Positions 54,811 to 60,902 of a stretch of 61,086 nucleotides of DNA are shown piece by piece; the first letter of the stretch is position 1, and each line of letters starts with the position of its first letter. This DNA comes from Planctomycetota bacterium (GTDB taxonomy: Bacteria > Planctomycetota > Planctomycetia > Pirellulales > PLA5). The notes below the pieces were generated by a model. The model was not told the origin of the DNA and did no database searches. It saw nothing but the letters and a program-made list of their open reading frames with translations. The stretch is from assembly GCA_003576845.1 (NCBI GenBank), contig QEVJ01000017.1, positions 1 through 61,086 of the forward strand. Direction: 5' to 3'. The position numbers and the translations under genes are program-made.

Positions 54811-54816
54811 TAGAAT
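54811..54816 (+). promoter_or_regulatory. Possible -10 box for the RNA candidate
   Basis: TAGAAT lies 14 nt before the closing stem of the structured RNA. No good -35 hexamer is found at 16-18 bases, so this is tentative. Confidence 0.3.
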
Positions 54817-54822
54817 ATCGAA

Positions 54823-55035
54823 CGAGGACAGAATCAAACTTACCGGCGTGTAATTCCGGCGGGTGGACCAATTTGTTATCGTGAGCCGAAGCCACCAAAC
54901 GGCTGTGCTTAGCACCGCCCGGCCTCCGCTCTTCTCGAAGCGACACCACCGTCGCAATCGGCCGGAAGTTTGATTCCGTACACGAAAAGGCCCCTGACTC
55001 GTCCGATCCTGGGTGAGTCGGAGGCCTTTTTCTTT
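54823..55035 (+). ncRNA. Candidate structured non-coding RNA with intrinsic terminator
   Basis: GAATCAAACTT-A-CCGGC (54831-54847) pairs with GCCGG-AAGTTTGATTC (54961-54976), a 16-bp stem with a single bulged A. It encloses 113 nt. Inside are GGC-T-GTGC-TTA-GCAC-C-GCC (54901-54919), a perfect GCGAC-ACCACC-GTCGC hairpin (54940-54955), an alternative CGCT...AGCG (54927-54942), and GGTGG...CCACC (54862-54896). Thirteen bases after the closing stem comes a strong terminator with a T-tract. No plus-strand protein gene ends here, so the terminator must serve this element or regulate the TPR gene that begins 244 nt later. I compared it by memory with 6S RNA, SRP RNA, tmRNA, RNase P RNA and common riboswitches and matched none. 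Confidence 0.55.
54989..55035 (+). terminator. Intrinsic terminator ending the RNA candidate
   Basis: GGCCCCTGACTC and GAGTCGGAGGCC form a 12-position stem with two non-canonical contacts and a 14-nt loop, followed by TTTTTCTTT. It is a strong plus-strand terminator; a weaker run of T follows on the other strand. Confidence 0.85.
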
Positions 55036-55054: not shown

Positions 55055-55144
55055 GGGTGCCACTGCTGGCTTGTCAAGCAGTGAGAATGTCCGATTGAAG
55101 TCGCCTCGCGATTCGCACTGCTGGACAAGCAAGCAGTGGCACCC
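55055..55144. repeat. Inverted repeat, GGGTGCCACTGCTGG family
   Basis: GGGTGCCACTGCTGGCTTGT... (55055-55083) pairs with ...CAAGCAGTGGCACCC (55116-55144), with two mismatches in 29 bases. Each arm is partly palindromic. A single related arm is at 28336. Confidence 0.88.
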
Positions 55145-57767: not shown

Positions 57768-57772
57768 GAGAA

Positions 57773-57863
57773 GTCTCAAGTCTCAAGTCTCAAGTCTCAA
57801 GTCTCAAGTCTCAAGTCTCAAGTCTCAAGTCTCAAGTCTCAAGTCTCAAGTCTCAAGTCTCAA
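57773..57863. repeat. Tandem heptamer, 13 exact copies of GTCTCAA
   Basis: The 7-bp unit GTCTCAA is repeated 13 times without error over 91 bases, starting 5 nt after a stop codon. Length variation by slippage is likely. Confidence 0.97.
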
Positions 57864-57893
57864 GACTCGGCGGATCAACCGCGCGTTCCCCCC

Positions 57894-59036: not shown

Positions 59037-59315
59037 ATGACGAGAACAGAAGTACATCTTCGCGCGGCCGAGTTCTTCGCTGGGATCGGGCTCGTTCGCC
59101 TGGGTTTGGAGCGGCAAGGATGGTCGGTGGTCTTTGCCAACGACCTCGATCCGCAGAAGAAGCGGATGTACGAAGCCAACTTCGGTGACGAGCATTGGAA
59201 TCCCAAGGATGTCCATACGCTCGAACCCGACGAAGTGCCCGACTGCGATTTGTTTACGGCGTCGTTTCCGTGCAACGATCTTTCGATCGCTGGGGCTTGG
59301 CGGGGGCTCAATTGA
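59037..59315 (+). pseudogene. Truncated DNA (cytosine-5) methyltransferase
   Basis: The 92-residue frame has motif I AAEFFAGIGLVRLGLERQGW, FANDLDPQKKRMYEANFGDE (motif II-III) and motif IV ASFPCNDLSIAGAWRGL with the catalytic cysteine C79. It ends abruptly with N and a stop, so motifs VI-X and the target-recognition domain are gone. The following 120 bases have a different open frame that reads NASANIAEMVDKLRRKESAL and may be a tail of another deleted gene. It cannot be active. It heads a decayed restriction-modification locus. Confidence 0.85.
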
Positions 59316-59484
59316 ATGATGTCGTCGGCGTACTTAATGCGAGCGCAAACATTGCGGAAATGGTCGACAAACTGCGCCGAAAAGAATCCGCGCTGATGGA
59401 CCCAGAAAAGGAAGGACGATTTCAAGTTAAGGGTTAAGCATATGGTTCGCCAAAAAGGGAAACACCGCGTTTGGGGTAAACGAA
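59316..59484. other. Junction region in the decayed restriction-modification locus
   Basis: A short open frame (to 59437) continues out of the broken methyltransferase in a shifted register and ends with RRKESALMDPEKEGRFQVKG. It looks like the C-terminus of a protein whose front was lost. The rest is the leader of the DUF3883 gene. Confidence 0.4.
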
Positions 59485-60252
59485 ATGCGCGAGTCGAATC
59501 GCAAACGTCTTGAGACTGCCGCCATTGTCGTTGGATATGCAATGAGCCGCCTCGACGAGCGTTACTTGCGGTCGCAAGGAGTACGTACATGGAAAACGGC
59601 ATTTGAACGAGCGGCAAAAGCATTGCGCGTAAAACCGACAAGTTTGAAGAACCTTCGAGACGAATTTGATCCCGTCCACGACAACTCGCGAAAAGGCTGG
59701 CATCATAGGCCGCTTCGACCAAACCGCCAGCGCGTTATGGGCGATCTTTCCGAGGTGAGTGACGATGCCCTGCTCGAGTCTGTAAATCGCATTCTCGGCG
59801 AAGACGAGACCGCGACTGAAGAATTGCTCGATTCGCTTATTGAAGCGCGACCCCCTGTCCACAATGTTGCGGAGCGACTGTTTACTGGCCGTCGAGCGGA
59901 GAACCTTTTCTTGAGCAACTGCGAGACTTGGATCGGGATTGCGCAATCTGAAATCGTCGACCGGCGAGATTCCGCGCTTGGCTTCGACTTCGGCGTGGCG
60001 GGCAATTCAGAGCGAGCCATCGAAATCAAAGGTTTGCGCGGCGATTCAGGTGGAATTCAGTTCACGGATCGAGAATGGTCGGAGGCAAAAATACGTCGAA
60101 CGGAATATTGGTTGGTGGTTGTTGGTAACGTCGCGGCGACGCCTGTTTTCCGGCTATGGAAAGATCCGCATAGTCTTCTGAATGCGCAGTGCCGATACCA
60201 GCGAAGCGTGACGGCCGTCTGGACTTCGAGAGTGGCATTGAAAGGCGAGTGA
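59485..60252 (+). CDS. DUF3883-domain protein, predicted endonuclease
   Basis: The 255-residue protein ends in a DUF3883 domain (about 165-250), related to PD-(D/E)xK nucleases: LGFDFGVAGNSERAIEIKGL supplies D168 and the E180-x-K182 pair, followed by GGIQFTDREWSEAKIRRTEY and WLVVVGNVAATPVFRLWKDP. The N-terminal part is helical and may bind DNA (FERAAKALRVKPTSLKNLRD). Such proteins accompany C5 methyltransferases and Vsr in restriction-modification loci. The domain looks intact even though its methyltransferase is broken. The start is at MRESNRKRLET. Confidence 0.75.
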   Translation: MRESNRKRLETAAIVVGYAMSRLDERYLRSQGVRTWKTAFERAAKALRVKPTSLKNLRDEFDPVHDNSRKGWHHRPLRPNRQRVMGDLSEVSDDALLESVNRILGEDETATEELLDSLIEARPPVHNVAERLFTGRRAENLFLSNCETWIGIAQSEIVDRRDSALGFDFGVAGNSERAIEIKGLRGDSGGIQFTDREWSEAKIRRTEYWLVVVGNVAATPVFRLWKDPHSLLNAQCRYQRSVTAVWTSRVALKGE

Positions 60253-60299
60253 ATCTAATCGTTCTTTGCACACGGGAGCACGTTTCTGACGAGGTGAAA

Positions 60300-60593
60300 A
60301 TGGCGAAGATCACGGTTGAAATCCCAACATACGACCCCGAAAGCGAAGTTGAATACGATTACGAAAGGCCACATGCGTTGACTCTTCGCGAAGAGGATGG
60401 CTTGCGCGTGTTCATGGGTGACCCAAGTGACGCGAATTCTCCGGATGTAATAATTGAGCGCGCAGTCGGGTTGTGGCGGGTATTTATTCATGCGGATCGG
60501 ACTGACCCGCTTTGCGTCATTGAGATTCGCGAAGACCGCGCTAGCGTCGAGGACTATCGCGGCCGGGTTCTTTTGGAACGCACCCTCGGATAG
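60300..60593 (+). CDS. Small hypothetical protein in the restriction-modification locus
   Basis: The 97-residue protein starts MAKITVEIPTYDPESEVEYD behind a GAGGTG site. It has an acidic beta-rich sequence ending in VIEIREDRASVEDYRGRVLL. I know no family. It is 47 nt after the DUF3883 gene and directly before the vsr fragment, so it belongs to the same unit. The stop codon TAG is 3 nt from the vsr frame. Confidence 0.65.
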   Translation: MAKITVEIPTYDPESEVEYDYERPHALTLREEDGLRVFMGDPSDANSPDVIIERAVGLWRVFIHADRTDPLCVIEIREDRASVEDYRGRVLLERTLG

Positions 60594-60596
60594 GCA

Positions 60597-60902
60597 TTGC
60601 AATCGCGCTTGCACGTTGCGAGTCTGCCAGGAAAACCGGATATCGTCTTTCCGCGGCTGCGGGCGATTATCAACGTGCATGGATGTTTTTGGCACCTGCG
60701 CCGCTGTCGACATGGTCTGCGCGCGCCCGTTTCCAACGCGGCGTATTGGCAAGCAAAGCGAGATCGGAATGTTGCTCGGGATCGTCGCAATTTGCGGCGA
60801 CTTCGCCGGCTGGGTTGGCGGGTGCTGACGATTTGGGAGTGTCAGACGCGCAATGCGGCGAAGTTGAAGCGGAAGATCAGTCGCTTTTTGGCGAACTTGT
60901 AA
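60597..60902 (+). pseudogene. N-terminally truncated Vsr (very short patch repair) endonuclease
   Basis: The frame begins with no ATG at LQSRLHVASLPGKPDIVFPR. It contains the Vsr core: PGKPDIVF with the catalytic aspartate, NVHGCFWHLRRCRH with the metal histidines, SNAAYWQAKRDRNVARDRRN and LGWRVLTIWECQ. The first 40 or so residues, which include a conserved helix and a glutamate, are missing; a stop lies immediately upstream. A TTG at 60597 could in theory start it, but the protein would be incomplete. It is the third member of the decayed locus and is probably inactive. Confidence 0.75.

Follow-up and report, generated by a model that had tools for sequence, protein, structure and literature searches.

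The locus and its predicted transcript

The window is the whole stretch of DNA that we analysed: 61,086 nucleotides from a member of the Planctomycetota (contig QEVJ01000017.1). At 54811-55035, the original prediction placed an undescribed free-standing RNA of about 200 nt, with a 16-bp closing stem, several internal hairpins, a -10-like box upstream, and a T-tract terminator downstream. The features that we recognise there are as follows.

54811..54816, + strand: -10-like promoter hexamer TAGAAT, from the sequence
54823..55033, + strand: predicted transcript of ~210 nt (RNA plus terminator), placed by the -10-like box and the terminator
54831..54847, + strand: 5' strand of the closing stem P1 (15 modelled pairs)
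54848..54878, + strand: 5' strand of the junction, conserved and mostly unpaired (alignment of 94 homologs)
54879..54893, + strand: 5' strand of the long hairpin P2 (13 pairs)
54901..54919, + strand: apical hairpin P3 (8 pairs), GGCTGTGC-TTA-GCACCGCC in the window
54921..54938, + strand: 3' strand of P2, ending in the conserved TCTCGCAG segment (covariation and conservation)
54940..54955, + strand: near-invariant hairpin P4 (covariation and conservation)
54961..54976, + strand: 3' strand of P1 (covariation)
54983..55033, + strand: intrinsic terminator, from the fold

The terminator is a G+C-rich hairpin followed by TTTTT. Of 60 homologous locus entries, six of them duplicates (repeat fetches of the same place), 54 have a strong hairpin with a T tract within 60 nt of the RNA. 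On the upstream side, the window lacks a convincing -35 box. Hexamers that match TATAAT at five or more of the six positions lie within 60 nt upstream at 49% of 53 homologous loci, as compared to 18% for shuffled sequences, and in one genus (g55) of another family, f21, just a few nucleotides separate a TACAAT from P1. Together, the -10-like box and the terminator suggest an independent transcription unit, which would start at its own promoter and stop at the terminator.

The locus does not encode a protein. Any given frame is open in at most 28 of the 94 homologs, and the modelled part of the copies (133-157 nt) varies in length by amounts that are not multiples of three, so we rejected a coding explanation. 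The ends of the RNA also bound the constraint: between families, the mean local alignment score is 86 for the RNA and 18-19 for the flanks (90-120 nt on either side), with shuffled sequences scoring 14.

A three-way junction supported by covariation

The RNA has a conserved three-way junction, with P1 as the closing stem, the long P2/P3 hairpin, and the small P4 hairpin beside P2. P1 pairs 54831-54847 with 54961-54976 (16 bp, with A54842 bulged; GAATCAAACTT-a-CCGGC with GCCGG-AAGTTTGATTC). This is the closing stem of the original prediction, and both the minimum-energy fold and the model of the 94 homologs contain it. The region 54811-55035 folds with an energy of -89.4 kcal/mol, versus -69.1 +/- 4.7 kcal/mol for dinucleotide shuffles (z = -4.3), and a good part of this difference comes from the terminator.

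To quantify compensatory changes, we used two alignments. The first contains 30 copies and was built by MAFFT without a model. In this alignment, on which the structure itself was chosen, 27 of the 41 pairs show double changes, and there are 127 double-change cells, versus 42 after shuffling. Sliding the partner strand by just one column reduced the proportion of paired cells from 86% to under 39%. In the alignment of 94 homologs, compensatory changes occur in 40 of the 41 pairs, paired cells make up 90% of the total, and there are 846 double-change cells (243 if shuffled); the covariation score is 0.596, versus 0.200 +/- 0.006 for shuffled alignments and at most 0.125 for slid ones. Because the larger alignment was fitted to the model, the test with 30 sequences is the less biased of the two.

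By helix (n=94), all 15 modelled pairs of P1 changed on both sides, with 85.8% of cells paired. Compensatory changes are also seen in all 13 pairs of P2, whose cells are paired in 100% (P2a) or 95% (P2b) of cases, and in all 8 pairs of P3. In P4, 97% of cells are paired. These sequences form a structured noncoding RNA family whose pairing is backed by compensatory changes.

The long stems vary freely in their letters while keeping their pairing. The most conserved letters are in an unpaired strand (CCGNCGGAGG), another strand (UCUCGCAG), and P4, and these meet at the junction. The 5' strand of the junction has the consensus ATTCCGNCGGAGG (ATTCCGGCGGGTGGACC in the window, at 54853-54869), and its core is mostly 70-99% identical across the 94 homologs even though it is unpaired. 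On the 3' side of P2, the conserved segment TCTCGCAG reads TCTCGAAG in the window (54933-54940). P4 is GCGAC-UCCACC-GUCGC, with the loop ACCACC in the window, and it corresponds to one of the internal hairpins that had been proposed (54940-54955). Four of its five pairs are invariant in the first 30 homologs, and it is kept in nearly all members of the family. Two divergent homologs, L130 and L132, lack the P4 hairpin entirely. We also considered a pseudoknot between the GGAGG motif and the P4 loop. There was no excess of pairing in the alignment of 30, and 17 of 300 shuffles were as good in the alignment of 94, so we do not claim it.

The original prediction included a second internal hairpin (54927-54942, CGCT/AGCG), which would exclude P4 and could act as a switch. 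This hairpin has no compensatory changes and scores the same as shuffles, and its bases are used by the strongly covarying helix P2. We therefore rejected this hairpin as a switch.

The RNA is single-copy and mostly inherited vertically

Using the 225 bases as the query, blastn found homologs in 32 of the 57 genomes in our set from the order, at one place per genome, apart from a single genome that also has a short additional piece. With a covariance model built from the 30 copies, we searched 393 genomes from across the phylum, and 76 of them had exactly one copy each. A refined model found one strong copy in all 39 of the survey's genomes from the same order (Pirellulales). Elsewhere in the class, most genomes of a single additional family, f21, also have one; families f22-f24 and the remaining classes of the phylum gave no credible match. 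A partial match in a genome from another class (G130; E = 0.027, 58 positions) was treated as chance. We also searched 84,980 genomes of named species for a pattern based on the conserved 3' portion of the RNA. All 27 of the matching stretches were from Planctomycetota, and the groups named in these records include Pirellulales, Pirellula, Planctomycetaceae, and Gimesia. From the titles of the matched records, we read the order of the survey as Pirellulales and f21 as Planctomycetaceae.

In the set of relatives from the order, the refined model had a strong match in 33 of 39 genomes. The six without a match include several drafts, such as a draft from the same genus (G001, in 790 contigs), as well as a single-contig genome (G006). 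Given these misses, the RNA may be dispensable or may have diverged beyond recognition.

For 73 of 90 copies, the nearest relative by sequence is from the same family, versus 16 if shuffled, which implies that the RNA is mostly inherited vertically. Since it is kept as a single copy in nearly all Pirellulales and in most of the sampled Planctomycetales, it probably has an important job.

No known class matches the RNA

None of the 4227 families in Rfam 15 matches the RNA, whether at gathering or relaxed thresholds. The relaxed matches were to eukaryotic microRNA models, which hit either the inverted repeat nearby or the hairpin of the terminator, or were weak and far below the cut-off; we attribute all of these to chance. 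The search bore out the prediction that no known class would match. Homologs turned up in dozens of genomes.

Of the known RNAs, 6S RNA (SsrS, RF00013) has the most similar layout: it is about 190-210 nt long, with a closing stem, a large bubble, and an apical hairpin, and it is a lineage-wide, single-copy gene. But there is no sequence or covariance match, and the present RNA has other conserved motifs, as well as P4 in its junction. Even at relaxed thresholds, the 6S model did not match the window or any of 20 homologous loci. Furthermore, several Pirellulales have separate loci where RF00013 scores above its cut-off. G002, G009, G019, G032, G033, and others carry both RNAs, and wherever 6S was found, its locus is distinct. 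We therefore rejected 6S as the identity of the RNA. Examples of the 6S loci are G009:C95:5993-6185(-) (L051), G032:C160:1497-1689(-) (L161), G033:C115:4679-4877(+) (L162), and G040:C11:1562-1767(-) (L052). Using one 6S copy as the query, blastn matched 24 of 54 genomes, many of which have the present RNA elsewhere; the 6S-like sequences carry ATGTTCG ... TGAGCCGATA and do not resemble the present RNA. In the window's own genome, we did not find 6S, and a pattern search there gave only chance-like matches. Pirellula staleyi and Rhodopirellula baltica were reported to lack 6S (PMC5673643), whereas we find that 6S does occur in Pirellulales.

SRP RNA, tmRNA, and RNase P RNA are also single-copy and housekeeping. 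Canonical copies of all three, over the cut-off, are at other loci in the window's genome (G000) and in five other carriers, which rules out these identities. The raiA motif, or ModT RNA (PMC11706538), is likewise an orphan structured RNA that is conserved across a large bacterial clade. It belongs to a different clade, and the present RNA matches no Rfam model.

In the literature that we searched, we found no description of the present RNA. The only possible prior listing there is the Rhodopirellula-1 motif (Weinberg 2010, PMC2864571), a candidate RNA motif that is listed there for Planctomycetes, with no Rfam accession. That listing describes it as probably cis-regulatory, with ambiguous status as an RNA, and as also present in Proteobacteria. 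The present RNA is not in a cis arrangement, and its core pattern is found only in records from Planctomycetota, so, going by these descriptions, it is probably distinct from Rhodopirellula-1. Given the lack of a match among 4227 Rfam families and of a description in the literature searched, the family is probably new; we claim newness for the family and not for a biochemical role.

A putative recognition surface at the junction

It is very likely that the locus is a real autonomous RNA gene that acts in trans. The free-standing gene of the original prediction is supported by the terminator, the -10-like box, the covariation, the absence of an Rfam match, and the single copies in two orders. 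For 54823-55033 as a whole, we consider it fairly probable that this is a stand-alone, trans-acting structured RNA gene of ~210 nt, from an undescribed family, whose junction is bound much as in a ribonucleoprotein (RNP). We lean towards an RNP-type mechanism, with less assurance than towards the gene itself.

In the mechanism that we propose, transcription of the RNA would start at a promoter of its own and stop at the adjacent terminator. The conserved strands CCGNCGGAGG and UCUCGCAG would converge with P4 at the junction and form a putative binding surface. The combination of freely varying stems and a fixed junction suggests that the surface is recognised by a protein or by the ribosome, rather than being a fast-evolving antisense seed. 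The partner is thus probably a protein or the ribosome. The outcome might be global regulation instead of the regulation of a single gene, as with the housekeeping RNP RNAs 6S and ModT (raiA motif). More tentatively, we propose a previously unknown housekeeping RNP RNA, ancestral to Pirellulales and Planctomycetales, that would be kept in one copy per genome alongside 6S, SRP RNA, tmRNA, and RNase P RNA and would use the conserved three-way junction in a planctomycete-specific process, such as regulation of the ribosome, RNA polymerase, or the chromosome.

Bacterial RNAs that are single-copy, clade-wide, and strongly covarying are rare, and past cases have been global regulators or the cores of RNPs. 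To our knowledge, almost no noncoding RNAs have been characterised in Planctomycetes, which have unusual cell biology. Rfam 15 does not include this family. With a consensus structure that can be put to use and members in cultivable genera, among them Gimesia, the RNA is open to direct tests of its expression, partner, and phenotype.

Alternative explanations

The main rival is that the RNA is a trans-acting antisense small RNA whose seed is either UCCACC, the C-rich P4 loop, or GGAGG in the purine-rich strand, and whose targets are Shine-Dalgarno regions or the anti-Shine-Dalgarno of 16S rRNA. Both elements are exposed and highly conserved (GGAGG is found in 65 of 94 homologs and GAGG in 86 of 94), and an autonomous gene with a terminator fits this role. 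We nevertheless consider it unlikely. The window's copy has GGGTGG in place of GGAGG, the conservation of P4 extends beyond its loop into the stem, and two members of the family do without P4. Also, antisense small RNAs do not usually retain 41 covarying pairs over two orders, so the covariation counts against this role as well. Another rival, that the locus encodes an additional RNA of the 6S type which has diverged strongly and binds RNA polymerase, seems quite improbable. It would account for the broad layout (a closing stem, a large asymmetric bubble, and an apical hairpin), for the similar length, single copy, and own terminator, and for our not finding 6S in the window's own genome. But RF00013 matches no copy even at relaxed thresholds, bona fide 6S genes are elsewhere in the same genomes, and the junction, with its conserved P4 hairpin and its sequence-conserved strand, is unlike that of 6S.

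The terminator lies directly 3' of P1, and in the window a TPR gene of the same orientation lies some 0.2 kb further downstream; the original prediction allowed for a leader that controls this gene. As a cis-acting leader or riboswitch, the RNA would regulate the downstream gene via the terminator. However, the nearest downstream gene is on the same strand at only 26 of 53 loci, as expected by chance. The downstream genes are unrelated (they encode an aminotransferase, a histidine kinase, a TANGO2-like protein, an RNase H-like protein, a dCache protein, and others), although these calls are from a simple script based on open frames and codon positions and single calls may be wrong. Neighbours are shared among close relatives only and differ from family to family. 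The varying neighbours and the chance orientation imply that the RNA does not act as a leader for the TPR gene, and the proposed switch hairpin does not covary. The leader explanation is largely refuted and is very improbable. Finally, G+C-rich intergenic DNA generally folds well, and there is a separate inverted repeat just downstream (55057-55142), so one might suspect that the structure arose by chance or that the locus is a mobile element or a repeat. The covariation, which is far above the controls, refutes this explanation. There is one strong copy in each positive genome, the window's own genome contains no other convincing copy, and inheritance is mostly family-wise. We consider the probability of this explanation to be negligible.

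Other elements in the window

The inverted repeat at 55057-55142 lies just after the terminator and has two palindromic arms (GTGCCACTGCTGGCTTGTCAAGCAGTG ... CACTGCTGGACAAGCAAGCAGTGGCAC). Related palindromes are found in the window's own genome (L043) and in another genome (L086). It looks like a small repeat element that is unrelated to the RNA. Further along, an intergenic tract at 57771-57868 contains 14 tandem copies of the heptamer AAGTCTC. At 59037-60902, there is a restriction-modification-like island, which includes an N-terminal piece of a C5 cytosine methyltransferase (92 amino acids, cut short by an early stop), a protein whose C-terminal domain is of the NO VEIN type, and a piece of a Vsr-type mismatch endonuclease.
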